Positions 37,846 to 60,728 of a stretch of DNA of 64,000 bases are shown here, one piece after another; position 1 is the first letter of the stretch; each line of letters begins with the position of its first letter. The notes under the pieces are model-generated. The model worked only from the letters and a program-made list of their open reading frames with translations. It did no database searches and was not told the origin of the DNA. The DNA comes from Gordonibacter sp. An230 (GTDB lineage Bacteria; Actinomycetota; Coriobacteriia; Coriobacteriales; Eggerthellaceae): the NCBI RefSeq assembly GCF_002159915.1, contig NZ_NFJP01000019.1, positions 1-64,000 of the forward strand, written 5' to 3'. A program made the position numbers and the translations under genes.

Positions 37846-39270
37846 TCAGGGCAAGGTGCGTATGCGATCAATGAGCTCTTGTTGGGAATGAACGTCAAGC
37901 TTCATGTAGATGTTTTTGACGTGGGTTTTCACGGTGTTCTTCGACACGAAAAGTTTCTCCTGAATAATGGCGATGCTTCGTCCTTGCGCAAGCAGCTTGA
38001 CGATCTCCGATTCGCGTGGGGTGAGCCCATATCGCTCGATCGCGCGTTCGCACTGCTCGGACAGCTCCCGTTCGATGGCGACTCTGTCATCGGTGTCTGT
38101 TTCGGAGACGGGCCGTACGTCTTCGATGAGCGTGCGGAAGCTCACTTTGCCTAGCAGGAGGATGCCGTAGGAGGCGAACAGAAACGAAAGCGCCACCGAG
38201 GCGATCACCGCTGCGTCGGCGCTGGAATTCATGAGATGTCCGACAAGCGCGCCAACTTCGAACCCTATGCGAGACACGCCGTACCCAATTGCGAACAGCG
38301 GCACCGAGCCAAAACGGTTGCGCCGTCCAATTTCCGACAAGACAAGATAGAAAACGAACGTGAAGCATGTCGATCCTGCTGCGAACAGCCAAGGACTTGA
38401 CAACGAAAGCCCTCTGGCTGCGTTGTTCGGAAGCCCTGCCAGAGGAACCACGAGAAATCCGCACAAGATAAGCAGGCAGGACAGCTTCACAAGGGCGTCT
38501 CCATCAAGTCGGCGTCCTGCGGTTGCGGCGACGAGCAGTGCGGCGAGCGGCAAGATCGAGAACTCTGCGTTTTGGGGAATCCCGCCGTCTGCCAGATAGG
38601 TGAGCGCGCAGCCGGTGGCGAGGTTGAAGAAGGCGAACGTGAGGAACACGATATGCGAAAGGGGGATGAAGGAGCGCGGGTTGGCAATGGAAAGATCTCC
38701 GAGCCGCTGTCTGCCGCGCGTTCTGAGCATTGTCGACGCGCCACCTGCATGGGCGAGCAACAACGATGCGAACGGTGCAGCCAATACGTACGCGAACACG
38801 ATATGCTCTGGCAGCAGGCCCACTGCGAACGCGAGCGGATATTGCGCTACCAACGCCGCCAGAAGCACGGTGTACGCTCGGAGATAGTCGAGCCTCACCA
38901 AAGTGAAGCAGGCGAACAAAGGGACGACTGTCCGTCCTCCTACGGACAAAAGCACGGCACCTGCAAACGTGATCAATGCGGATTCCCACAATGCGCCTAG
39001 GATGATGCACCCGAGGCCTGCAGCTGCTGCGCAAGCGAAGCTGAGCGCCATTTTGAGGGAGATGAACGGGAACGGTCGCCTCATGGCGATGCCTGCAATC
39101 GCGAACAAGGTGAGCGCGCCGACGATGGTTGCCGCATCCTTCGCCTGCGGCGCGAAAGAATAAAACAGCGGGAACACATGGGTGTTCACGAGCGTGTCGA
39201 GCGAGAACAGCAGCGTTAAGCTCAAGCAAGCCGCTCCGCTGGCGAGCATCTTGTTCCGCTTTTTGTCCAT
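37846..39270 (-). CDS. Membrane LuxR-type regulator, module C
   Basis: About 474 residues with about twelve membrane helices and a C-terminal LuxR helix-turn-helix (LTPRESEIVKLLAQ, VSKNTVKTHVKNIYMKLDV). The linker before it is acidic (SETDTDDRVAIERELSEQ). The start at 39270 has GAGGGGGCTCG before it; the frame itself extends to 39327. It is divergent from the module C flavoprotein with a 243-base shared promoter region, the tightest LuxR/flavoprotein pairing after module D. It is the presumed ligand-responsive activator of that gene. Confidence 0.87.
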   Translation of the reverse strand: MDKKRNKMLASGAACLSLTLLFSLDTLVNTHVFPLFYSFAPQAKDAATIVGALTLFAIAGIAMRRPFPFISLKMALSFACAAAAGLGCIILGALWESALITFAGAVLLSVGGRTVVPLFACFTLVRLDYLRAYTVLLAALVAQYPLAFAVGLLPEHIVFAYVLAAPFASLLLAHAGGASTMLRTRGRQRLGDLSIANPRSFIPLSHIVFLTFAFFNLATGCALTYLADGGIPQNAEFSILPLAALLVAATAGRRLDGDALVKLSCLLILCGFLVVPLAGLPNNAARGLSLSSPWLFAAGSTCFTFVFYLVLSEIGRRNRFGSVPLFAIGYGVSRIGFEVGALVGHLMNSSADAAVIASVALSFLFASYGILLLGKVSFRTLIEDVRPVSETDTDDRVAIERELSEQCERAIERYGLTPRESEIVKLLAQGRSIAIIQEKLFVSKNTVKTHVKNIYMKLDVHSQQELIDRIRTLP

Positions 39271-39352
39271 CGAGCCCCCTCTCGTGAGGCAGATTCTACC
39301 AAACGGCAAGCCATTTTTTGGAGGCATCGCACTGGCGTTCCGCCGCGCTGTC

Positions 39353-39513: not shown

Positions 39514-41253
39514 ATGACCGATTGCACGCGTCGCGATTTTCTGGTTGGTGCCGCTGGGGCGGGTGCGCTCGCTGCGTTCGGACTTGCAGGATGTGCGCCG
39601 ATGAGTAAGGAGGAGGCCGCCGAGAAGGCGTCAGCCCAAGCGCAGGCTGAGGGGACGGTGGCTTCGGCAGGTGCGGGCGAGTGGCTAGGAGAGGCTCCAC
39701 AGATCGCCGACAGCGACATCGTCGAAACCAAAGAGACGGCGTTTCTGGTGGTGGGTGCTGGCAATGCCGGGCTTGCCGCTGCTGCTACAGCTTGCGAGCT
39801 GGGCCTCGATTTTTTGTTGTGTGAGAAAAACGATTTTGTCATGACGCCGCGCAACTTCTTCGGCGCTATCGACACGAAATGGTCGAAGGCGGCCGGTATC
39901 GAATACGACCGCAATCTCATTCTCAACGAGCTGGCGCGCTACGCTTCCTTCAAGTGCAACATGGACCTTATCAAGGTGTGGATAAACGAAAGCGGCGAGA
40001 CGTTCGATTGGCTCGAGCCTTTCATGGCCAAAGGTGGCAAAAAACCCATGTTCCAAGGCCCTGTTTTCGAAGATCCGTATGACTCCGGCGAAGGCGGCGG
40101 GCGTTATTACATTCCACCTATCCAGCATCAGTACGTGGACGAGACGTTCAACGCCTATTCCGATCCGCAGCGCAACGAGCTTTTGGAACAGTACCTTGAA
40201 AGCGAGGGCCATCCTACGCTGTTCAAGCACGAACTGGTGAAACTGGTCAGGGAAGGCGAGCGCGAAGGGCGTGTGGTCGGTGCCGTCTTCCAAACGCCCG
40301 ATGGATACGTTCGGATCGATGCGTCGAAGGGTATCTTGCTTGCAACTGGAGGCTACCAGGCCAATCCCGACATGATCAAGGCGTTGCAGCCGCTCGTTCC
40401 CAAGATCGTCACCACGAACGGCTACATGTCCGAAAACGATGGCGCTGGCATCAAGGCGGCCATGTGGATAGGGGCGGACAAGCAAGCCGAAGGCACAGCG
40501 ATGATATTCAATCGAGGCGGGGTTCAGCCTGAGGTTTCTGCAGGGTACGTTTTGGACAAAGACGGCAAAGAGGTGTTTCCCGGACAGTTCTCCCAAGTGA
40601 AATTAGGTAGCCAGCCGTTTCTCAAGGTAAATAGGGAGGGACGCCGTTTCGTGAACGAATCGTGCCCCTACGATTTCTTGGACCACGCAGCGAGCGAGCA
40701 AACCGATGGCGTGTGGTGCCAGATATTTGACGCGAACGCCAAGGAGGACATCGGACGTTTCAGCACGCTTGGTTGCTCGAACATCAAAAACACTTTCGTG
40801 AACACCGACCTGACCATCGACGACTACATCTCCGATTGGGAAGCTGCGGGCGTGTATTGGAAGGCTGACACCCTCGATGAGCTTGCTGAAAAGCTCAAGC
40901 TGCCTGCTGACCAGTTGAAACAAACGGTTGATCGCTACAACGAGCTGTACGATGCCCAGTATGACGAAGACTACGGCAAAGAGTCGTATCGTCTCTCGGC
41001 TATTCGCACGCCCCCATTCTACGGCGGTTGGTTTGGCGGAAATCTGCTGTGCACGCTCGATGGTCTGCGTATCAATGCGGATATGCAGGTGCTTGACACG
41101 GAGAACCGGGTCATTGACGGCTTGTATGCGGCCGGAGATTGCTCGGGCGGCATGTTCAGCGGCAACTATCCTGAATACTACGCTGGCGTGGCCGTTGGTC
41201 GAACGGTAACGTTTGGCCGTCATGTGGCGCGTCGGCTTGCCGGGGATATCTGA
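39514..41253 (+). CDS. Tat-exported FAD-dependent reductase, module C
   Basis: 579 residues. Twin-arginine TRRDFLVGAAG, lipobox LAGC with Cys27, FAD motif GAGNAG at 81-86, NREGRRFVNES near 371 and a C-terminal block LYAAGDCSGGMFSGNYPEYY then FGRHVARRLAG are present. That C-terminal pattern (AG-x-C-x-GG-x-F-x3-YP) is shared with module D but not A or B, so C and D form one subgroup. AAGGAGGG precedes the ATG. No attached haem domain. The acceptor is unknown. Confidence 0.88.
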   Translation: MTDCTRRDFLVGAAGAGALAAFGLAGCAPMSKEEAAEKASAQAQAEGTVASAGAGEWLGEAPQIADSDIVETKETAFLVVGAGNAGLAAAATACELGLDFLLCEKNDFVMTPRNFFGAIDTKWSKAAGIEYDRNLILNELARYASFKCNMDLIKVWINESGETFDWLEPFMAKGGKKPMFQGPVFEDPYDSGEGGGRYYIPPIQHQYVDETFNAYSDPQRNELLEQYLESEGHPTLFKHELVKLVREGEREGRVVGAVFQTPDGYVRIDASKGILLATGGYQANPDMIKALQPLVPKIVTTNGYMSENDGAGIKAAMWIGADKQAEGTAMIFNRGGVQPEVSAGYVLDKDGKEVFPGQFSQVKLGSQPFLKVNREGRRFVNESCPYDFLDHAASEQTDGVWCQIFDANAKEDIGRFSTLGCSNIKNTFVNTDLTIDDYISDWEAAGVYWKADTLDELAEKLKLPADQLKQTVDRYNELYDAQYDEDYGKESYRLSAIRTPPFYGGWFGGNLLCTLDGLRINADMQVLDTENRVIDGLYAAGDCSGGMFSGNYPEYYAGVAVGRTVTFGRHVARRLAGDI

Positions 41254-41752: not shown

Positions 41753-42212
41753 GGTGCGAAGGAGCGGCTTTGGGCCTGCGCTCCGAAGGCCGCCATGCTT
41801 TTCGTTGGCAGAAACGCGTTGGGCGCCACGATGGAGAACCCGGCTACGGGGCCGAGGAATCCATCGAAGTCGATTCCGGCTCCGAAATGGCCGATTCGAT
41901 GTCTTTCCGATTGCTCCTTCAAATGTCGTCTTGATCGGGAGAGGGGACGAAGGAGCGCCTGGCCGGTTTGGCTGCAGCGTCCGTGAGGATGGTTCCAGTG
42001 GCGATGCCCGCCGGCTACGTTCATCACGTTGTCTCGGTCGACTTCTCTAAAGCTTCCTCGCGATTCTCCCCGTGCAGCTTATGCGGCTCGGTCTGTCCGG
42101 TTGTCGTCTGATCGCGCGCGTGCGCGGCGTGCGCTGCTGGCGTAAAGCGCGATAGTGCTAGAATGCCATGGGCCAAACAAGAAGAAAGCCGAGCCGGCTC
42201 ATCGGAGGATCC

Positions 42213-43499
42213 ATGACGAAAATCCATTCCTGCACCTGCTCCATTGACGCCGACATCGTCGATGCGTTTTGCGCGCTGCAGAAGGGCTTCACCGATCAGT
42301 TCGTCTACTACCGCAAGGACCGCCCCGTGCGCTTCATGGGGCTCGGCCGTTGCGTCGCGCTGCCGACGCTTGACGACGTGGAGTGCGAATTGGAGGGTCC
42401 CGAGGCGCAGCAGCCGGTGTTCTTCTCGTTCAACCGCTTCGATGCGGGCAACCCTGCCCCTGCTGACGAGTTGTTCGAGGCGTTCCCGCGCCTCAAGTTC
42501 ATGCTCCCCGAAATCGTGCTGATGGAGACGCAAGAAGGTGCGTTTTTGCAGGTGAACTCGCTCGGGCCGGTGTATCCGGGACGCATTGGGCGATTCGTGC
42601 GCCAAGCGACCGACGCCCCGCCGCGTCGGCGCGAGACCGTTTCCTATCGGTTGGAGCCGGACTCGCGCGAAGCGTGGCGCGAGTCCGTGGCGGCGGCGCT
42701 GAACGCCATCGGCGAGGGGCGCGTGGAGAAGGTGGTGCTCTCGAGGCGGAAGCGGCTGGTTGCGGCGCGTCCGTTCTCGTCGAAGGACGTGCTGGTGAAC
42801 CTCATCGACGGCTCGGCGCGCGGAACGGTGCTCTTGTACCGTTACGCCGACGTGTTCTTCTGCGGATGCACGCCCGAGCTGCTCGTGCGCAAGCGCGGCT
42901 GCGAGGTGGAGAGCATGTGCTTGGCGGGCACGTGTCCGGCGGGCGGTTCCGAGGCTGAACGCGAGCGGCTGGCCGCCGCGCTCATGACCGACACGAAGAA
43001 CCGTGCCGAGCACGACTACGTGGCGCGTTTCGTGCGCGAGGTGTTCAACCGCACGTGCTACGACGTGGACGTGCCCGCTCGTCCGGACATCTTGTCGCTT
43101 GCTCACGTGCAGCACCTGCACACGCCCGCCCGCGCGCGCATGCTCGAGGGCATGGGCCTGTGGGAGATGATGGGCGACCTGCATCCCACGCCCGCCGTGG
43201 CCGGAGCGCCGGTGGGCGAGGCGCGCATGTTGCTGCGGCGCATCGAGGCGTACAACCGCGGGTTCTTCGCAGGCGCGTGCGGCTACGTGGACGGCGCTGG
43301 CGACGGAGAGTTCTCCGTGGCGCTGCGCACCGGGGTGTTCGACGGCGAGGTGGGCTGGGTGTACGCCGGCTGCGGAATCGTGGACGGCAGCGTGGCAGAC
43401 GACGAGTACGACGAGATCGATTTGAAGCTGCGGACGATCCTGAGCGCGTTCGACGGCGAGACGCGCGGCGATGACGCGGCGGCGAGCGGCGGCGCGTGA
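42213..43499 (+). CDS. menF: Isochorismate synthase MenF
   Basis: About 428 residues of the chorismate-binding (MST) family. Marks are VEKVVLSRRKRL (about 175), ESMCLAGTCPAGG (about 235), DTKNRAEHDYV (about 260), HLHTPARARM then LHPTPAVAGAP (about 305-332), and a C-terminal EYDEIDLKLRTIL. It converts chorismate to isochorismate, the first step of menaquinone synthesis. The men-cluster context argues for MenF over EntC or salicylate synthase. ATG 42213 follows CGGAGGA; ATG 42168 has no site. It is the first gene of the cluster. Confidence 0.92.
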   Translation: MTKIHSCTCSIDADIVDAFCALQKGFTDQFVYYRKDRPVRFMGLGRCVALPTLDDVECELEGPEAQQPVFFSFNRFDAGNPAPADELFEAFPRLKFMLPEIVLMETQEGAFLQVNSLGPVYPGRIGRFVRQATDAPPRRRETVSYRLEPDSREAWRESVAAALNAIGEGRVEKVVLSRRKRLVAARPFSSKDVLVNLIDGSARGTVLLYRYADVFFCGCTPELLVRKRGCEVESMCLAGTCPAGGSEAERERLAAALMTDTKNRAEHDYVARFVREVFNRTCYDVDVPARPDILSLAHVQHLHTPARARMLEGMGLWEMMGDLHPTPAVAGAPVGEARMLLRRIEAYNRGFFAGACGYVDGAGDGEFSVALRTGVFDGEVGWVYAGCGIVDGSVADDEYDEIDLKLRTILSAFDGETRGDDAAASGGA

Positions 43500-44123: not shown

Positions 44124-46079
44124 ATGAACGCGAGGGCTGGGAGCGAGGGTGTGCTCGCGAGCGGTGCGAGCGGAGGCGCGGGCAAAAGCGCGGGCGCGCC
44201 TGCGGGCGGAGCGGCCGATCCGCGCGCGACGGCGCTGTTCCTGGGCGCGTTCTTCGACGAGCTGGCGAGGTGGGGCGTGCACGACGTGGTGGTGAGCCCC
44301 GGCTCGCGCTCCACGCCGCTGACGATGACGGCGTTCGAGCTGTCACGGCGCGAGCCGGAGCGGCTACGCGTGTTCGTGGACGTGGACGAGCGCGGCGCGG
44401 CCTTCTTCGCGCTCGGGCTGGCGAAGGCGAGCGGCCGTCCGGCCGCCGTCGTCTGCACGTCGGGCACGGCGGTGGCGAACTACTATCCGGCGGTCATGGA
44501 GGCGGAGTCGTCGCGCGTGCCGCTCGTGGTGCTCACGGGCGACCGACCTCCGCGGCTGCAGGGACTCGGCGCTCCGCAGACGTGCGACCAGCTGAACGCC
44601 TACGGCAACCATGTGCGCGCGTTCCGCCAGATGCCGCTGCCCTCGGGCGACGGCGCCGCGCTCGCGTTCGCACGCCAGGTTGCGCGCGAGGCGGTCATCG
44701 CGGCGGGCGAGGAGTGCTTCGGCGGTCCCGTGCACCTCAACTTCCCGTTCGACGAGCCGCTCAAGCCCGACTTCAGCGCGGAAGGGCTGTTCGAGTCGGC
44801 GCGGCGCCTGGATGTTTCACGTGAAACATCCGTTCCCATTTCGCAGCAGCTTGCGCCGAGCGACGCCGGGCGTCTGGTCGCGCTGCTCGCGGACCGGCGC
44901 GCGCTCGTGTACGCGGGCGAGGGGACCTGCACAGGCGAGCTCGAAGCCGGCAAGGTGCTCAATTGGGCGCGAGCTTTCCGCCTGCCATTGCTCGCGGACC
45001 CGTTGTCCGGCCTGCGGTCTTCGGACGATCCCCTGGTCATCGACAACTACGACTCTGTGCTCGGTCCGGGCGGTGCGGCCCCCGACGGCCTTGCGCCCGA
45101 GGTGGTCGTGCGGTTCGGGCGCTATCCGGTGTCGAAGAAGGCGACGCAGCTGGTTGCCGCCGCGCGTCCGGTGCAGATTGTGGTCGATCCGCTGGAGACG
45201 CGGGACTGCAACGCGGCCACCGACGTGTTCGTGCGCTGCAGGCCGTCAGAGCTGGCGGGGTCGCTCGGGTTCGCGTACGACGTGCAGACGATCGACTATG
45301 AGCCTGACGACGTGCAGCGAGCCTTCGCGCGGGCGTGGATCGACGCGAACGATGCCGCGCGCGAGCGCATCGTGGCGGTGGACGACGTGGAGGCCGGCTT
45401 CGAGGGCGCGTTCGTCCGGCGGGTCGTGGAGCTTGCGCCGGAGGGATCATGCCTGTTCGCGGCCAACTCCATGAGCGTGCGGGCGCTCGACACGTTTTAC
45501 GTCAAAGGAGGGAAGCGCCTGGCCGTGCTCTGCAACCGCGGCCTCAACGGCATCGACGGCACGGTGTCCACGGCGCTCGGCGCGGCGCAGCACTTCTCCC
45601 AGACCACGCTCGTCACGGGCGACCTCACGCTGCTGCACGACTTGAACGCGCTCGCTCTCCAGCGCGAGCTGCGCGTGCAGCGGGAGGCGGCATGCGCCTT
45701 CGCCTCGTCCGATACGGCATCCCGTGAGGCGGCCGGCGCCGCCATGCCCGGTGCTGCGACCGATACGGCGCCGGGCAACGCTGCGCCCGGCACGGGCCCG
45801 AGCATCGTCATCGTGCTGCTGAACAACAACGGCGGCGGCATCTTCGACATGCTGCCCCAGAAATCGGAGGACCCGTATTTCGAGCGGCTGTTCCTCACCC
45901 CGCAGGACGTGGATTTCCAGGCGGCCGCGCAGGCGTTCGGCGTGCCGTACCGTGCAGCGGGCACCGTGGAGGCCTTCGACGAGGCGTACCGCGAGCTGCT
46001 GGGAACGCCTGGCATCTCGCTCATCGAGGTGCGCGTGCCGCTCGTCGGCCTCAAGGAGCGTTACGCGCCGTACTGGTAG
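44124..46079 (+). CDS. menD: SEPHCHC synthase MenD
   Basis: 651 residues; a thiamine-diphosphate enzyme joining 2-oxoglutarate to isochorismate. Visible are SPGSRSTPLTMTAFEL (about 57), DERGAAFFALGLAKASGRP (about 90), TGDRPPRLQGLGAPQT (about 138), and the ThDP/Mg elements GDLTLLHDLNAL (about 499) and LLNNNGGGIFDMLPQ (about 568). Between these last two an Ala-rich insert of about 40 residues is not normal for MenD, and the N-terminus has 30 extra Ala/Gly residues. GAAGGGGGTG precedes the ATG. A perfect parS palindrome lies inside the coding sequence at 44813. Confidence 0.93.
   Translation: MNARAGSEGVLASGASGGAGKSAGAPAGGAADPRATALFLGAFFDELARWGVHDVVVSPGSRSTPLTMTAFELSRREPERLRVFVDVDERGAAFFALGLAKASGRPAAVVCTSGTAVANYYPAVMEAESSRVPLVVLTGDRPPRLQGLGAPQTCDQLNAYGNHVRAFRQMPLPSGDGAALAFARQVAREAVIAAGEECFGGPVHLNFPFDEPLKPDFSAEGLFESARRLDVSRETSVPISQQLAPSDAGRLVALLADRRALVYAGEGTCTGELEAGKVLNWARAFRLPLLADPLSGLRSSDDPLVIDNYDSVLGPGGAAPDGLAPEVVVRFGRYPVSKKATQLVAAARPVQIVVDPLETRDCNAATDVFVRCRPSELAGSLGFAYDVQTIDYEPDDVQRAFARAWIDANDAARERIVAVDDVEAGFEGAFVRRVVELAPEGSCLFAANSMSVRALDTFYVKGGKRLAVLCNRGLNGIDGTVSTALGAAQHFSQTTLVTGDLTLLHDLNALALQRELRVQREAACAFASSDTASREAAGAAMPGAATDTAPGNAAPGTGPSIVIVLLNNNGGGIFDMLPQKSEDPYFERLFLTPQDVDFQAAAQAFGVPYRAAGTVEAFDEAYRELLGTPGISLIEVRVPLVGLKERYAPYW
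44813..44828. other. Perfect parS site inside menD
   Basis: TGTTTCACGTGAAACA, identical to the parS consensus at all 16 positions. In the menD frame it encodes Val-Ser-Arg-Glu-Thr, so both protein and DNA functions share the bases. Confidence 0.85.
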
Positions 46080-46331: not shown

Positions 46332-47261
46332 ATGGCGAAACGGGAGGAATGCTTCCAGCACGACGGCGTGCGCTACCGCTTCGCCGTCTGGGGATGCGAG
46401 GCTGCCGGAGCTGCCGGGGCCGCGCCCGTCGTGCTGCTGCACGGCTTTGCCCAGAGCGCCGCAAGCTGGGATGGCGTGGCCGAGCCCTTGAGCTGCACGC
46501 GCCCTGTCGTGGCGCTCGATCTCGTTGGCCACGGCGGCAGCGACCGGCCAAAGGGCGCTGCCGCCTACGCGCTCGAGGCGCAGGGCGAGATGCTGCTGGC
46601 GTTCCTCGCATCCGCGCTTGGCGAAGCTGGCCCCGCCGCGCCAGGAGGCCCGGACGAGCGCTTCGCCGCGCCGGTGCAGGGTTCTCGGAAACCCGTGGTT
46701 GTGGGCTACTCGATGGGAGGGCGCGTCGCGCTTGCTGCCGTCTGCCGGCAACCGGGGGCGTTCGCCCGTTGCGCGGGGGGCCTCGTGCTGGAAAGCGCCG
46801 GGTTGGGCCCGGTTGACGAGCGCGAGCGCAAGGACGCTGCCGAGCGCGATGCGCGCAACGCCGCCGCCCTGCGCCGCGACGGGCTCTCCGCGTTCATGGA
46901 TGCCTGGGAGCGCCTGCCCCTGTTCGCCACCCAGCGAGACCTGCCCGCCTCGACCTGCGAGCGCGTGCGCGCGGGCCGCCTGGCGAACGACGCCGAAGCC
47001 CTTGCCCGCACGTTCGAGCACGCCGGCCAGCATGCCATGCCCTCCCGTGGGGACGTCCTTGCCGCGCTCGCCTCGCTGCGCGACAGCGGCGTGCCGGTGC
47101 GGTATATCGCCGGTGCGCGCGACGTGAAGTACCGCGCGCTTGCCGAGGGCTTGGAGGACGAGGGCTTGTGCGAGGTGCGCGTCGTGGCCGGAGCGGGCCA
47201 CAACGTCCATCTCGAGGAGCCTGCGGCCTACCTGCGCACCCTCGAGGGCTTTCCCGGATAG
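46332..47261 (+). CDS. menH: SHCHC synthase MenH, alpha/beta hydrolase
   Basis: 309 residues. The alpha/beta-hydrolase core has the oxyanion region [14 protein letters not shown] (about 34-47), the nucleophile elbow VVGYSMGGR (about 119-127), the acid in [10 protein letters not shown] (about 259) and the His in [13 protein letters not shown] (about 284). In a men cluster this fits MenH, which eliminates pyruvate from the MenD product. A Pro/Gly/Ala-rich insert lies at about 95-115. AGAGGAAGG precedes the ATG. Orthology to MenH rather than another hydrolase rests mainly on context. Confidence 0.85.
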
Positions 47262-47689: not shown

Positions 47690-48529
47690 ATGGGCGACAT
47701 TGCGTGGCAGGCGGGCAAGGCATACCGCGAGATCATCTACGAAACCTGCGACGGCATTGCCAAGATCACCATCAACCGGCCCGAGCGCCGCAACGCCTTC
47801 ACGCCGCTCACCGTGAACGAGCTCTACGACGCGTTCACCGCCGCGCGCGACGACGCGGCCATCGGCGTTATCATCCTCACGGGCGCCAACCACGGCGGCC
47901 GCCACGAAGACGAGGCGTTCTGCTCCGGCGGCGACCAGAAGATCCGCGGCAACGGCGGCTACGTGGGCGAGGACAGCATTCCGCGCCTCAACGTGCTCGA
48001 CCTGCAGCGGCTCATCCGCGTGGTGCCCAAGCCCGTGATCGCGATGGTGAACGGCTACGCCATCGGCGGCGGCCACGTGCTGCACGTCCTGTGCGATTTG
48101 TCCATTGCGGCCGAGACGGCCAAGTTCGGCCAGACCGGCCCCAAGGTGGGCAGCTTCGACGCAGGGTACGGCGCGGGCTATCTGGCGAACATCGTGGGCC
48201 AGAAGAAGGCGCGCGAGATTTGGTACCTGTGCCGTCAGTACACGGCGGCCGAGGCGCTTGAGATGGGTCTCGTGAACAAGGTGGTGCCGTTCGACGAGCT
48301 GGAGGCGGAATGCGTCGCCTGGGCGCAGGAGATGCTGCAGTTCAGCCCCACGGCGCTGCGCTTCATGAAGGCGTCGTTCAACGCGGCCACGGACGGCCTC
48401 GCGGGCATCCAGCAGCTTGCCGGCGACGCGACGCTTCTGTACTACACCACCGACGAGGCGAAGGAGGGCCGCGACGCGTTCAAGGAGAAGCGCGCGCCCG
48501 ACTTCACGCAGTTCCCGAAGTTTCCGTAA
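47690..48529 (+). CDS. menB: 1,4-dihydroxy-2-naphthoyl-CoA synthase MenB
   Basis: 279 residues, crotonase fold. [15 protein letters not shown] (about 75-89), [18 protein letters not shown] (about 118-135), [13 protein letters not shown] (about 148) and [15 protein letters not shown] (about 257-271) are the MenB hallmarks, including the catalytic Asp in SFDAGYG. It closes the second ring of the naphthoquinone. Start 47690 follows AAAGGA at a good distance; ATG 47660 has no site. It is next to menE-menC, its immediate upstream steps. Confidence 0.95.
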
Positions 48530-48603: not shown

Positions 48604-48699
48604 ATGTCCGAGTGCGGCAAAACGGCGGAACCGAAGGATTGGCATCCGGCGAACGACATGAGAGGAGCGGGCTCCAGCAACGATGATCAGCGCGTTTGA
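48604..48699 (+). CDS. Possible 31-residue leader ORF overlapping menE-C
   Basis: ATG at 48604 with GGGGAGGACTGCG directly before it; stop at 48697-48699, 17 bases inside the menE-C gene in another frame. The peptide begins MSECGKTAEPKDWHPAND. The menE-C start itself has a poorly placed ribosome binding site, so translation of this short frame could deliver ribosomes to it. No known peptide family. It could also be chance. Confidence 0.35.
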   Translation: MSECGKTAEPKDWHPANDMRGAGSSNDDQRV

Positions 48700-51625
48700 G
48701 AGCATGGTGCGACGGCATCCGCAACGCACGTGCTTCACGTGCGTGGACGAAGCGGGCGAAGCGCGAGCGTACTCGTATCGCGAGACGCGCATGCTGTCGG
48801 CGGCGCTTGCCCGGCGTTTGCAGCATCGTGGCGTGAGCCCCGGCGACAGCGTGTCGGTGGATTTGCCGAATTGCGCCGCCTACGTGTTCCTTGTGCTCGC
48901 TGCTGCGTACGGGGGCTTCTCGCTTGTGGTGCTGAACAATCGCCTGACTGCGGGGGAGAAGCTCGGGCGCCTCATGGAGATCGAGCGCAAGCCGGGAGTG
49001 AACGTGGCGCTCCGCATCGACGAGGACTCCGCTGAGCGGCTGATGGACGAGGCCGTTTCCCTTTTGACGGGCGAGGTCGGAACGGAGGGATCCTCCCGCG
49101 GCCTTCGCGCTGGGTCGCGTTCCGCGCCAACCCGTCCCCGCCGCATCAGCTTCACCGCGCGCGAGAGCGCGCTCGTGGCCGAGCCGCGTTCGGCGCGTGG
49201 GCTCGGTCGCGCATCGACGGGCAGAGCCTCGCTGCGACGCCGCGACGAGATGACCCGCCAGGATGCGGTGGAAGGCGTCATCCACTTCGCCGAACATGCG
49301 GCGCATGTCTTTGATCGCGGGGTTCGTGCGCTCGTCATGTTCACGTCGGGAACGACGGGCCGTTCGAAGGCGGTATCGCTTACTTGGGAGAACGTTTGCT
49401 CTGCTGCCGAAGCTTCCAACGCGGCGCTCAACCGTCGCGGCGAGGGGCTGTGGCAGGCGGCGCTGCCGCTTTGCCACATAGGCGGATTCCAAGTGGTGGT
49501 GCGCAGCCTGCTGAACGGAACACCTTTCATCCTATACCGTCGTTTCGATGCGGCCCGCGTGCTCTCCGACGCTTCTCGGCGCGGCGCAACCCACATCTCG
49601 GTGGTCGACAAGATGCTTCAGGACATGCTCGCGGCATGCGCAGAGCTGTCGATGGACGTCATGCGCCGCTATTCGTGCATCCTGCTGGGTGGCGGGGCCG
49701 TGAATCCGCGCACGCTCGAACGCGCCTTGGCGGTGGGCGCGCGGGTGTATGCGAGCTACGGTATGACCGAGACGTCAAGCCAAATAGCGAATTGCCTGGT
49801 GACTAATGCATTTCGCGGGGGGTTGCGGCTCATGCCGTCCTATCGCGCGCATATCGTCGACCCGGGCGAGGACGGCTTCGGGCGCCTTGCTGTCAAAGGC
49901 CCCGGTTTGTTCGAGGGCTACTTGAACGCCCGGGCGGCTTACACGGTGGACGGGTTCTTTCTCACGGGCGATACGGCCATGATTCGCGATGGCCTGCTGT
50001 ATGTGAAGGAGCGCACTGACGACATGTTCGTCTCGGGTGGCGAAAACGTCTATCCTGCCGAGATCAAAGGCCAGATCCTACGCGTGCCGGGCGTGGCTGA
50101 CGCCCACGTGTTCGGAGTTCCCGATAGCGTATGGGGTCGTCGTCCCGTGGCGCTCGTGGAGCGCGATCCGGCATACGCTTTGTCTGCTCCTGCGCCGCTT
50201 GCTTCTTCGTCGCGCTCAGCGGTGACCGCGAATCGTGCGTCCGCGCAAGCTCCCGCTCCATCCGCAGCCGATTCCGCTGTCTCAGCGCGGATGGCGGACC
50301 GGCAGCTAACCATTGCCGTTCGGGACTATCTGGGCCCTCGGCTCTCGAAGCTCTATCGTCCCAAGCACCTCTGCGTGCTCGACGAGTTTCCACGCACCGG
50401 CATCGGCAAGGTTGATCGCGCCGCGCTCGAACGTCTCTACGACCAGCGCATAGAGGTCGAACGCGTTGTGCTGCATCGCTTGAGACTGCCGTTCTCGATG
50501 CCGTTTCATACGCCGAAGGGCACGCTCACGCAGCGCGAGTCGGTCATCGTGGAGGTGGTCGACCATGCTGGCCGCACAGGATTGGGCGAATGCGTGGCCT
50601 TTTCCACCGATTGGTATCTGCCCGAGACCATCGAGCAGGATGTCCGGGTGCTGCGCGATGTCTTGGCTCCGATGGTGCTGGCTGAGACGTTTCTCCATCC
50701 CCGCGAGGCGAGCGCCGCGTTCGCCTCCGACCCTCGCGTCGCTGCGTTCCCTATGGCGTGCGGCGCGCTCGAGCCGGCGTTGTGGGATCTGTACGGCAAG
50801 ATCGTGGGAAAGCCGTTGTGGCAGTTGGTGGGCGGCGAGGCCCAAGGCGGCATCGCGGAAGGGGGCGTGTCGGTTCCGGCAGGCGCGGTGGTGGGCTTGG
50901 GATCTCCGAGCGAGACGTTGGCTGCGGTGCGCCGCTGCGTTGAGGCGGGATATCGCCGTGTGAAGCTTAAAGTTGTTCCGGGTTCGTCCGTCGCGTGCGT
51001 GCGCGCTGTGCGCGCGGCGTTTCCTCAGCTGGTCGTTACGCTTGATGCCAACCAAAGCTTCACCGAGCGCGATATGGACGAACTGCGCGCCCTCGACGCG
51101 TGCGGTGCGGCTTGGATCGAGGAGCCCCTCGATCCTCGGCATGCGCCGCAAGGCGTTTCGGGCGACCTGTTCTCGCGCTTGGCGAAGCTCCAGGGCGCGC
51201 TGCGCACTCCAGTGTGTCTGGACGAGTCCATTGTGCGAGCGCGCGATCTCGCTCGCGCGCTCGCACATCCCGAACTGCGCTGCTATGCCGTGAAGGCGGC
51301 TAAGTTCGGCGGCGTTCAGCCCACTCTCGATTTCCTCGCCGTGGCACGTGAGCGCGGTATCGACGTGTGGATGGGGGGCATGTATGACACGGGTGTATCG
51401 AAGCGGCTGCATGCCGCATTGGGAACTTTGCCCCAGGTGAAGGCGCCTGGCGATATCGGCTCGACCGCGCGCTACTTCTCGCAAGACGTCACTGATCCTC
51501 CCTACACTGCGGAACGCGGCTTCGTCACGCTCAACCGAATGGGGCACGAGCACGGGCTGGGATGCGATCTCAACAGGGCGGTGCTTGCGCGCGTGCTGGT
51601 CGACCGCATCGTGATCGAGCGATAG
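48683..51625 (+). CDS. Fused MenE (OSB-CoA ligase) and MenC (OSB synthase)
   Basis: 980 residues. Residues 1 to about 585 are an adenylate-forming CoA ligase: VMFTSGTTGRSKAVSL (about 218), YASYGMTETSSQ (about 358), FLTGDTAMIRDGLLYVKERTDD (split at about 430-450), and a final GIGKVDRAALERL (about 574). Residues from about 590 are an enolase-superfamily o-succinylbenzoate synthase: RRVKLKV (about 757), LDANQS, WIEEPLD, LDESIV and AVKAAKFGG supply the Lys, three acids and second Lys of MenC. Consecutive pathway steps are thus joined in one chain, MenC last although its reaction comes first. Two Ala/Ser/Arg-rich inserts (about 130-200 and 500-535) interrupt the MenE half. Confidence 0.9.
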   Translation: MISAFESMVRRHPQRTCFTCVDEAGEARAYSYRETRMLSAALARRLQHRGVSPGDSVSVDLPNCAAYVFLVLAAAYGGFSLVVLNNRLTAGEKLGRLMEIERKPGVNVALRIDEDSAERLMDEAVSLLTGEVGTEGSSRGLRAGSRSAPTRPRRISFTARESALVAEPRSARGLGRASTGRASLRRRDEMTRQDAVEGVIHFAEHAAHVFDRGVRALVMFTSGTTGRSKAVSLTWENVCSAAEASNAALNRRGEGLWQAALPLCHIGGFQVVVRSLLNGTPFILYRRFDAARVLSDASRRGATHISVVDKMLQDMLAACAELSMDVMRRYSCILLGGGAVNPRTLERALAVGARVYASYGMTETSSQIANCLVTNAFRGGLRLMPSYRAHIVDPGEDGFGRLAVKGPGLFEGYLNARAAYTVDGFFLTGDTAMIRDGLLYVKERTDDMFVSGGENVYPAEIKGQILRVPGVADAHVFGVPDSVWGRRPVALVERDPAYALSAPAPLASSSRSAVTANRASAQAPAPSAADSAVSARMADRQLTIAVRDYLGPRLSKLYRPKHLCVLDEFPRTGIGKVDRAALERLYDQRIEVERVVLHRLRLPFSMPFHTPKGTLTQRESVIVEVVDHAGRTGLGECVAFSTDWYLPETIEQDVRVLRDVLAPMVLAETFLHPREASAAFASDPRVAAFPMACGALEPALWDLYGKIVGKPLWQLVGGEAQGGIAEGGVSVPAGAVVGLGSPSETLAAVRRCVEAGYRRVKLKVVPGSSVACVRAVRAAFPQLVVTLDANQSFTERDMDELRALDACGAAWIEEPLDPRHAPQGVSGDLFSRLAKLQGALRTPVCLDESIVRARDLARALAHPELRCYAVKAAKFGGVQPTLDFLAVARERGIDVWMGGMYDTGVSKRLHAALGTLPQVKAPGDIGSTARYFSQDVTDPPYTAERGFVTLNRMGHEHGLGCDLNRAVLARVLVDRIVIER

Positions 51626-57263: not shown

Positions 57264-59015
57264 TCAGGCTCGGCTCTTTGCGTCGATCATTTCGCGCCCT
57301 GCCGCATTGGTGCCGGCCATTCTGCCGAACGAGAGCGCCATCGCCAAGCTGATGCCCGCCACGGTTACCGGATATTCCACGAGGAATCTGCCGCCCATGC
57401 AGTTGCCTGCCACGAACAGCCCCTCTATGGGGTTACCCTCGTCGTTGAGGGGTTGAAGCCGCGAATTGCACTCCAAGCCTCCCATGACGACGAGCATCCC
57501 GGCGAGGTCGAACCGGATGGCGTAATACGGAGGGTTCTCCACGGGGAACAGCCGAGTGGGAATCTTGCCGTAGTCCTCGTCCAAACCGTTGTGACATTGT
57601 TCGTTGTAACGTTCGATCTCGGCTTTCACCACGTCTTCGGGGAGCTCCATCGCCTGTGCGAGCTCTTCGATGGTGTCGGCTTTCACGGTGGCCCCTTCTT
57701 CGATGCTGCTGGGAGTGGCGATTCCCAATAGCTTGAGGGACCACCCCGATTCGACAACGGTTGTCAGCTCGGCAACCTCCTCGTCGGTTAGATAGTGGTT
57801 TGCGTATCCGTGTCCGTCGGGCATGAGCGCGATTTGCTCGGGCCATTTGGAGTCGAATATTTGCCAGCTTTGCTTCTGGGGTTGCCGCGACATCTGATCG
57901 GCGATGTTCTGTCCGGGGATATCCTCGTTCATGAAGCGTTTGCCTTCCATGTTGAGTTGCAGGTACGAGTTGATCCCCATCGCTCCGCCCATATGGTGCG
58001 TCATGGGCGCGAGCGGACCCAACTCCATGTGAGCGCCCGCCCACATGCCCATGCGGTGCCCGTCGCCGGTGTTGGCGACAACCCCCTTCGCATCGTTGTT
58101 GTAATACACGCAGGAGAATTCGTCTGCCCACGGCACGTAGTAATCGCGCATCTCTTGGTTTCCGCCGATGTCTCCCGTGCAGAGGCACACTGCTTTTGCA
58201 TTGATTTTCGTGTACGCGCCGTCTGCGTCGTGCACGTACGCGCCCACTACTGCTCCCGCATCGTTGGTGATAAGCTGCTCGGCCCAGGTGGAGAACATGG
58301 TTTCCGCTCCAGCGGCGATGGCGGCGTCGTAAGCGGTTTGGCTTGCCCAGTTCGCGTTCGGGTTCGTGGTGATGCTCCCGTGGAAATACGGATAGTATTC
58401 TTTTTTATAATCATATCCTTCCAAAGGGGGAAAGCACTTCGGGCGAATGTAGTTCGTCTTGTCGGTCTGCTTGTTCGCCCATGTGGTTGGCAACACCTCG
58501 TAATCTGCTCCGTCGATGTACCAGTCGAAGTCTTCTCCGGAATGATCGTACCAGTATCCGAGAAAGTCGGGGTTGGGTCGGTAGCACATGTCTTTCATGA
58601 GCTGGTTGACGATTTCCGATTTCGGTGCCCACTCGATACCGAGTTCCTTTTGAATACGGCTTCCAACGACGCCGAAGTCGCCGGCGTCGGCGATGACGCA
58701 GAGCTCGGACTGCTTGTCGACGCCGATCACGCGAACGCCCGTTTCCGCTGCGGCCTTGAGGGCGGCAAGTCCTGAAATTCCGAGGCCGATCACCAGGACG
58801 TCGCATTCTTTTTCTTCTTTGACGTCGGCAGGCGCTTTCGGCGGCGTCATGAACGAAGGGGCTGAGGCGCTTTCTCCCTGCACCGCCGACGGCGCGTCGT
58901 CGGCAGACGACGTTGCGGTTGCCGGGGCGCAGCCTGCCATCCCGGCGCTCGCCGCAGCTGCCGCCACAGCGCCCAGTCCGATGAACGCCCTTCTGCTAAG
59001 GTTCTGTTTCTGCAT
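57264..59015 (-). CDS. Tat-exported FAD-dependent reductase, module D
   Basis: 583 residues. Twin-arginine LSRRAFIGLGA, lipobox MAGC with Cys29, FAD motif GLGISG at 77-82 (a Leu where A or S is usual), NMEGKRFMNED (about 358), and the C-terminal LFVAGNCMGGRFLVEYP then LSFGRMAGTNAAG, like module C. The mid region is aromatic-rich (YWYDHSGEDFDWYIDG), suggesting a larger or aromatic substrate, but this is conjecture. GAGGAGAGGGC precedes the ATG. It is divergent from its LuxR gene. Confidence 0.87.
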   Translation of the reverse strand: MQKQNLSRRAFIGLGAVAAAAASAGMAGCAPATATSSADDAPSAVQGESASAPSFMTPPKAPADVKEEKECDVLVIGLGISGLAALKAAAETGVRVIGVDKQSELCVIADAGDFGVVGSRIQKELGIEWAPKSEIVNQLMKDMCYRPNPDFLGYWYDHSGEDFDWYIDGADYEVLPTTWANKQTDKTNYIRPKCFPPLEGYDYKKEYYPYFHGSITTNPNANWASQTAYDAAIAAGAETMFSTWAEQLITNDAGAVVGAYVHDADGAYTKINAKAVCLCTGDIGGNQEMRDYYVPWADEFSCVYYNNDAKGVVANTGDGHRMGMWAGAHMELGPLAPMTHHMGGAMGINSYLQLNMEGKRFMNEDIPGQNIADQMSRQPQKQSWQIFDSKWPEQIALMPDGHGYANHYLTDEEVAELTTVVESGWSLKLLGIATPSSIEEGATVKADTIEELAQAMELPEDVVKAEIERYNEQCHNGLDEDYGKIPTRLFPVENPPYYAIRFDLAGMLVVMGGLECNSRLQPLNDEGNPIEGLFVAGNCMGGRFLVEYPVTVAGISLAMALSFGRMAGTNAAGREMIDAKSRA

Positions 59016-59204
59016 GCCCTCTCCTCTCCTCGGTTATCCTTGACAGGCACCTTGCGTGCCGGGGATAGTGGAGAGCATAGGGGCTTGCGCGCCGGGCCGC
59101 CCCCTCCGAATCGGCCGGTTCAAAGCGCGCTTTCTCAAAAAGCCCTATCCGAAACGGGTAAAAAAACGAAAAGCGCCTCGGTGCTCGTTACGCGTGCGGA
59201 GAAT

Positions 59205-60728
59205 ATGCGGTATGGTGTACCGAGCGAGGAGGGGAAGGTTTTGGGGTCTTTTCGCTTGGCAAAGATCAACCATCTGAACGACGGGTTCGCTTTGGCCGGG
59301 TACGCCTTGTACTCGGTGTACGCATGCCTGCTTTTCCATTCCCCTACTGCGATCTCCTCTCTTGCTCCTTTTGGCGGGGTTGCGACGTTCTGGTTTCTGA
59401 TAGCCCTTCTCACCGGTCGGGTGTGCGGGTATGTCTTCTATTCTCTGTGTCCCTCGAGAAGAGTTGCGCCTCGGCATTCGCAGATGGCGTTGCTCGCGAT
59501 TTTCGGCTTGGCGTTGCTTGGCTTCGTCGTCGTGGGCATGGCGCTTTCCTTCTCGCCGATGGTCTTCGACGTGGTTGTAGCGCTTCCATGGCTTTGCGCG
59601 GGCGCATTTGCGCTGGGGGGCGCCGATGCGGCGCTGGTGGTCGGCTTGCTGGGCCGTCTCATCGCTTTTGATCTGCGCAATTCGTACTTGTTTCTTGTCG
59701 TGAGCAACATCGTTGCCGTGCTGGCATACTACGTGCTCACGTTTCTTCCCCGATTCCTTTCGTTTCCGGCGGCGGCTCTCTTCTTCTTTTTGGCGTTGGC
59801 ATCGTTGCTCTGCGATCAGAGGGTGGTGACGGATCGATCGAAAAGCGAGTACTCCGCTTTTGTTTTTCGGGGCGCACTCTTTCGGCTTTGGCGACCGATA
59901 CTGGGCGTGCTGACGCTGGGGTTCATGGCTGGTCTCATACTGCAGATATCCGGCAGGGAGGAGATCGCCCTCGAGGCGTTCCAGCAAAGCTCCGTGTTCT
60001 CGAGCCTTCTTTTGTACGTCGTGCTGCTGGTTGTCGCCCTTGCCCTTCCAAAGAACATCGATCTTGGTCGCATTTACCAGGTGGCGATCCCGATCTCGGC
60101 AGTGAGTTTTCTGCTGCTTCCCCTTGTATGGAATTCGGCTGGCGGCATCGTCAACTCTTTTGCGAATTTGGGATTCATGCTTGCGCTGTTGGTGCTCACC
60201 TGTCTTGTGGTTGGACTGGCTCGGGATACGGGGGCTCCTGTGTTTTCGCTGTTGGGCGTGGCGTATGCGACGGCATACCTGTCGCAGTGGGGCGGCATGA
60301 TCGTCGGTTTCTGCAATGCGTCTAGCATTGGACGAGGGACGCTGGCGCTGACTGCCATTGCGCTCGTATCGGTGTACTTGCTTACTGTGCTGTCGTTGGC
60401 GCTTTTCAAGGACAAAGGGTTCCGTGGGTTCGAGGACGACGGCGCTGCTCCGGCCGAAGATCGGCTTCGTGGCGTGCAGGTGGAGGGTGCATCGTGCGGG
60501 GAGCGGTGCGACGAGATCGCCGAGGCCTATGGTTTCACGGAGCGCGAACGCGAGATCGTGAGGTATTTGGGCCAGGGGAACACGATTCACGCCGTTTCCA
60601 AGCGGCTATACATTTCCGAAAGTACGGTGAAATACCACGTTAAAAGCATTTACCAAAAACTTGAAATCCATACGCGACAGGAGCTCATCGACATGATTGC
60701 ACAAAGGGTTGAAGAACCGAAAGGCTAG
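59205..60728 (+). CDS. Membrane LuxR-type regulator, module D
   Basis: About 507 residues, about twelve membrane helices, and a C-terminal LuxR domain (FTEREREIVRYLGQ, ISESTVKYHVKSIYQKLEI). It shares a 190-base divergent promoter region with the module D flavoprotein. The frame is open from 59040. ATG 59205 has a GGAG site; a TTG at about 59238 with a better AGGAGGGGAAGG site is a real alternative. Its recognition helix differs from A-C (SESTVKYHV against S[QK]NTVK), consistent with a separate operator. Confidence 0.83.
   Translation: MRYGVPSEEGKVLGSFRLAKINHLNDGFALAGYALYSVYACLLFHSPTAISSLAPFGGVATFWFLIALLTGRVCGYVFYSLCPSRRVAPRHSQMALLAIFGLALLGFVVVGMALSFSPMVFDVVVALPWLCAGAFALGGADAALVVGLLGRLIAFDLRNSYLFLVVSNIVAVLAYYVLTFLPRFLSFPAAALFFFLALASLLCDQRVVTDRSKSEYSAFVFRGALFRLWRPILGVLTLGFMAGLILQISGREEIALEAFQQSSVFSSLLLYVVLLVVALALPKNIDLGRIYQVAIPISAVSFLLLPLVWNSAGGIVNSFANLGFMLALLVLTCLVVGLARDTGAPVFSLLGVAYATAYLSQWGGMIVGFCNASSIGRGTLALTAIALVSVYLLTVLSLALFKDKGFRGFEDDGAAPAEDRLRGVQVEGASCGERCDEIAEAYGFTEREREIVRYLGQGNTIHAVSKRLYISESTVKYHVKSIYQKLEIHTRQELIDMIAQRVEEPKG

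Follow-up and report, generated by a model that had tools for sequence, protein, structure and literature searches.

The last gene of the menaquinone (men) cluster in Gordonibacter sp. An230 encodes the OSB-CoA ligase MenE and the OSB synthase MenC as one continuous chain. We consider it very likely that this predicted protein is a clade-specific bifunctional menaquinone enzyme that arose by a once-only fusion, that would carry two independent catalysts per chain, and whose joining would bring an ordinary benefit. The gene lies in the 64,000-nucleotide stretch of contig NZ_NFJP01000019.1 that was analyzed (the window), and all coordinates given here refer to that stretch.

Two enzymes in a single reading frame

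The fusion gene and its parts are as follows.

48683..51625, + strand: menE::menC fusion gene, 980 aa, predicted bifunctional OSB-CoA ligase / OSB synthase (single open frame, domain matches, same-frame homologues)
48683..50422, + strand: MenE half, residues 1-580, adenylate-forming OSB-CoA ligase by profile, Pfam, motifs, tree, and fold match
49088..49183, + strand: first variable insert within the MenE half, spanning roughly residues 136-167 (columns gapped in more than half of 40 homologues; pLDDT below 50 at 137-147 and 149-151)
50174..50284, + strand: second variable insert within the MenE half, rich in Ala/Ser and spanning roughly residues 498-534 (gapped columns; pLDDT below 50 at 508-522)
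50417..50452, + strand: MenE/MenC junction, where the last MenE helix (579-587) leads into the first MenC strand (from 590) with no separate linker (AlphaFold2 model, comparison with Bacillus menE-TAG-menC)
50447..51622, + strand: MenC half, residues 589-980, OSB synthase barrel (TIGR01928 over cut-off, catalytic residues, fold match)

An earlier note on this DNA had described a 980-residue chain joining OSB-CoA ligase to OSB synthase, with both active sites apparently intact, and each part of that description is borne out. The frame runs from ATG to stop over 980 codons without an internal stop. Adenylate-forming and MR_MLE/OSBS-type domains are both matched by Pfam (AMP-binding at residues 5-414, 159 bits; AMP-binding_C at 465-576; MR_MLE_N at 603-717; MR_MLE_C at 746-966, 110 bits). 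Among NCBIfam models, TIGR01928 (menC) scores 257.4 bits against a curated cut-off of 200.65, and TIGR01923 (menE) is the top-scoring ligase family for the MenE half, which bears the two inserts, although its 250.8 bits against the whole fusion protein fall below the curated cut-off of 330.15. All catalytic motifs that were checked are present in both halves. A search of a plasmid collection with the fusion returned no record covering 80% of it in one place.

In the MenE half, every one of the adenylate-forming core motifs A3, A5, A7, A8, and the A10 lysine was found: the P-loop SGTTGRSK (222-229), YGMTE (359-363), TGD (428-430), ER..D (443-447), GGENVYP (452-458), and Lys576. A phylogenetic tree places the fused MenE halves with six Bacillota operon MenE proteins (SH-aLRT 99), whereas ten ligase paralogues from the same genome fall outside this group. 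One of these unlinked ligases scores 268 bits to the MenE profile, above the fusion (251), and yet does not group with MenE in the tree. With menB directly upstream, the MenE half also sits within the men operon. As judged from its sequence, then, the N-terminal half is MenE, a name that rests on its descent, motifs, and context even though its score stays below the profile cut-off. The two inserts are low-complexity stretches (Arg/Ser- and Ala/Ser-rich, respectively) that vary among species and are modeled with low confidence.

The MenC half carries the KxK motif (761/763), the metal ligands D788, E814, and D847 (with E848), and the second lysine K871. No second MenC over the cut-off was found in a profile search of the same genome. 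The OSBS/NSAR subfamily of the enolase superfamily includes promiscuous OSBS/NSAR enzymes. Members from Amycolatopsis, Thermus, and Deinococcus share the fold and the catalytic residues of the MenC half, but they lack a fused ligase and several are racemases.

When solved structures were searched by sequence, the MenE half matched Bacillus subtilis MenE (5x8f, E = 5e-49) and the MenC half matched N-acylamino acid racemase/OSBS enzymes (lowest E = 2e-54). The AlphaFold2 model has two well-folded halves (mean pLDDT 88.8, pTM 0.78), for which Foldseek gave B. subtilis MenE 5x8f as the best fold match (N half) and OSBS/NSAR structures at a TM of about 0.92 (C half). In the adenylate-forming ligase superfamily, the C-terminal domain rotates between half-reactions, and MenC in the fusion is therefore attached to a mobile domain.

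The men cluster in the window

The fusion is the last gene in the order menF-menD-menH-menB-menE::menC, with all genes on the same strand.

42168..43499, + strand: menF, isochorismate synthase (TIGR00543, 262.7 bits, over cut-off)
44124..46079, + strand: menD, SEPHCHC synthase (TIGR00173, 398 bits, over cut-off)
46332..47261, + strand: candidate menH, encoding an alpha/beta hydrolase and located between menD and menB (best family TIGR03695, 174.5 bits, short of the 208.55 cut-off; Abhydrolase_6)
47699..48529, + strand: menB, DHNA-CoA synthase (NF005637 at 482 bits and TIGR01929 at 406 bits, each over its cut-off; profile match 47723-48514; start approximate, since the open frame already begins at 47168)

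The same operon (menF-D-H-B-EC) is present in most relatives. The first downstream gene of a known family encodes an arginine/ornithine-type antiporter that is unrelated to the menaquinone pathway. A MenH-like hydrolase is encoded between menD and menB, although a HAD protein (MenY) has been proposed as a MenH substitute in gut genomes without MenH (PMC4746308). Flavocytochrome c/fumarate-reductase-like FAD enzymes flank the men cluster at 39514-41253 and 57264-59015, and each is adjoined by a LuxR-type regulator (37846-39327 and 59040-60728).

Distribution of the fusion

The spread of the fusion in Coriobacteriia, which the earlier note had proposed to survey, covers the family Eggerthellaceae plus two metagenome-assembled genomes (MAGs) from another family of the class. 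A MenC profile was run against 298 genomes from the class and 119 from the family, and 60 loci were then read. MenE and MenC share one frame at 58 of these; of the remaining two, one is a fragment at a contig edge (G124) and one a MenC that stands alone (G334). A second scan was run on GTDB contigs, with genomes overlapping those of the first survey, and yielded 64 fused loci, one contig-edge fragment, and one frameshifted MAG copy, whereas the Bacillota loci have separate genes. Catalytic motifs are intact in 59 of the 64 fused loci, 58 of which have menB alongside. Both halves of intact fusion pairs have dN/dS values of about 0.07-0.3. The nearest homologue is on a Rubneribacter badeniensis contig (L041/L163), with identities of 85% in the MenE half and 87% in the MenC half.

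Outside Eggerthellaceae, the fusion occurs only in those two MAGs (G121 and G151), each with its own men cluster. Their loci (L035 and L034, respectively) comprise a full cluster with a shorter fusion that branches as sister to all sequences of the family; it could stem from transfer, from older common ancestry, or from a binning error. The fused MenC halves form a single clade with a support of 99. In other Actinomycetota and in Bacillota, all MenC proteins examined stand alone. Specifically, 15 sampled MenC genes from other Actinomycetota, the longest open frames included, have no MenE in the MenC frame, and frames of up to 812 codons around such genes lack MenE, so the idea of fusions elsewhere in this phylum was rejected on this sample.

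In the family survey, a single free-standing MenC scored above the cut-off (L086:5779-6921, from G334), and its genome has menB on another contig. This MenC is a long-branched outlier in the tree, the sister genomes lack both MenC and menB, and this gene may be a contaminant.

Probable origin by loss of a stop codon

In Bacillus loci, menE lies immediately 5' of menC. The two enzymes thus have the same order and adjacency as in the fusion, and in the B. licheniformis group they also share a frame, but they are two proteins in Bacillota and one in Eggerthellaceae. In Bacillus swezeyi, B. haynesii, B. paralicheniformis, and B. sonorensis, a single TAG separates menE from menC, and the menC start is a few codons further on. 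The earlier note had pointed to an order reversed relative to the pathway. No functional reason need be sought for this order, which simply reproduces that of menE and menC in the men operons of Bacillus.

We infer that the loss of one stop codon would yield both this order and the near absence of a linker. The fusion would have arisen once, before the diversification of Eggerthellaceae-type lineages, probably through loss of the stop between adjacent operon genes menE and menC, and would then have replaced the separate genes. The Bacillus single-TAG arrangement is evidence for the ease of such a loss, not for the actual origin of the Eggerthellaceae fusion.

Active-site decay in genomes that lost the pathway

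Among 56 family fusions, a decayed active site was found in 11 of 11 genomes without MenD versus 0 of 45 with MenD (Fisher p 7e-12), where a score of roughly 190 bits or higher counted as presence of MenD, and a few of the copies so counted are contig-edge fragments. All 45 MenD-bearing genomes keep both sites, and all 11 MenD-less genomes, whose only matches, of about 70-85 bits, are to other thiamine enzymes, have motif loss in at least one half. On the tree, these pathway losses amount to four independent events in the same direction, for which a phylogenetically corrected sign test gives a p value of 0.125, significance being out of reach with four. MenF is missing in all 11 genomes. MenB is missing in 10 of them, where absence in G315, G330, G276, G286, G300, and G305 means that the genome was listed without a match or was not among the 76 with a match.

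The exception is G201 (L056:2831-5737), which has an intact MenE half, an adjacent menB, and a UbiA-type prenyltransferase, and lacks MenF and MenD. Its MenC half has lost its lysines and a metal ligand and has a long branch in the MenC tree. Bacteria that take up OSB from neighbors are a predicted class (PMC4746308), and G201 is likely an OSB user and a candidate OSB-importing bacterium.

The remaining genomes differ in which half is damaged. G181, G276, G187, G269, G286, and G330 combine broken MenE motifs with a MenC half that has kept its main catalytic residues; N790 of MenC is replaced by D in G269 and G330. The fusions of G214 and G315 are similar, except that KxK in MenC has become KxR. 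G300 has a damaged MenE half with an intact MenC, and both halves are damaged in G305. A broken ligase site together with absence of MenF and MenD is seen at ten loci (L069, L078, L055, L057, L079, L036, L072, L080, L081, and L082), and all of them except L082 keep a synthase half that is mostly or completely intact.

A comparison of G181 with G276 gave dN/dS values of 0.06 and 0.07, with strong constraint in both halves; values for other pairs are less informative, several dS estimates being saturated. Retention of the synthase half with a broken ligase, along with constraint on both halves in at least one pair, suggests reuse. Tentatively, Eggerthellaceae without the menaquinone pathway might have kept the fusion whole for a new job, in which a catalytically dead ligase would serve an intact enolase-superfamily barrel as a module for structure or regulation. 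We regard this as plausible but somewhat doubtful; it draws on the absence of MenF and MenD, the loss of the ligase P-loop and other motifs, and the purifying selection on both halves. An MFS-CBS transporter adjoining these orphan fusions was considered as a functional partner and rejected. It also lies beside intact fusions (L071, L087, L065, and L044) and so represents the ancestral neighborhood.

Function and alternative explanations

In the proposed function, the MenC half would dehydrate SHCHC to OSB, and the MenE half would adenylate OSB with ATP and produce OSB-CoA. This product would then be cyclized by MenB, which is encoded by the next gene upstream. The two halves appear, from their patterns of decay, to function as separate catalysts on one chain, because each half's site decays in genomes without the rest of the pathway. 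That the sites are lost independently when pathway steps are lost also argues against obligatory coupling. The benefit of the fusion would lie in equal dosage, co-localization, and locally higher OSB rather than in the shielding of an unstable intermediate.

Three other readings were weighed. There is almost no chance that the fusion is an assembly or sequencing artefact, such as a missed stop or a frameshift between two genes, which the earlier note had raised. Nothing was found to favor it, although one relative (MAG L158) has a frameshift within the gene, and it is excluded by the same in-frame join in dozens of other, independent genomes, some of them closed or single-contig. It is very improbable that one or both halves are something other than men enzymes, be it a different acyl-CoA ligase for the N half or, for the C half, a protein acting chiefly as an N-succinylamino acid racemase. 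The score of the MenE half below its curated cut-off, the presence of N-acylamino acid racemases among the solved structures closest to the C half, and the promiscuity of the OSBS/NSAR subfamily all lean that way, but they are outweighed by the operon with menF, menD, menH, and menB, the lack of another MenC over the cut-off in the genome, the placement of MenE in the tree, and the decay of a site that accompanies pathway loss. A separate menE or menC elsewhere in the genome was likewise rejected as a candidate, given that single MenC and the ten ligase paralogues outside MenE.

The reading suggested by the earlier note, that the fusion serves to pass OSB by channeling from the active site of MenC to that of MenE, is unlikely, and no result of this analysis speaks in its favor. 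It would be compatible with two consecutive pathway steps on one chain almost without a linker, and with retention of the fusion across the clade wherever the pathway is retained. However, OSB is not the unstable intermediate that the note had taken it to be: it is soluble, with exchange proposed between cells (PMC4746308), and plants move it out of the plastid into the peroxisome (PMC6189191). It is OSB-CoA, the MenE product passed to MenB, that is labile; OSB-CoA converts to a spirodilactone (PMC6210188) and lies outside the MenC-to-MenE step. Therefore, the instability argument fits transfer from MenE to MenB and not the MenE-MenC fusion. Moreover, in G201 the MenE half seemingly can work alone, next to a dead MenC half. 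For the bifunctional enzyme with two separate catalysts, retention of the fusion is sufficiently explained by plain co-expression and proximity.

Related fusions and implications

Other fusions of menaquinone or related quinone enzymes are known. PHYLLO of plants and algae (PMC6189191) joins MenF, MenD, MenC, and MenH, and thus places several quinone steps including MenC on one chain, as here. In contrast to the Eggerthellaceae fusion, it has other partners and stops at OSB without MenE, so its origin is presumably independent. The MenY-MenI fusion of gut bacteria (PMC4746308) likewise joins two Men steps, but these are a HAD hydrolase and a DHNA-CoA thioesterase. The main text of that report does not mention a MenE-MenC fusion. 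A search of the open literature, with most subscription papers outside its reach, found other Men fusions and none of MenE with MenC, and we provisionally regard this fusion as undescribed so far.

The menaquinone pathway is a discussed antibacterial target, and the MenE-MenC fusion marks a whole family of gut bacteria. Its near-zero linker provides a simple test case of a moving domain that tolerates a large fused partner. The half-dead fusions are a natural set from which the role of each half can be read through evolution. Finally, G201 fits the class of bacteria predicted to take up OSB (PMC4746308), which makes OSB cross-feeding testable.
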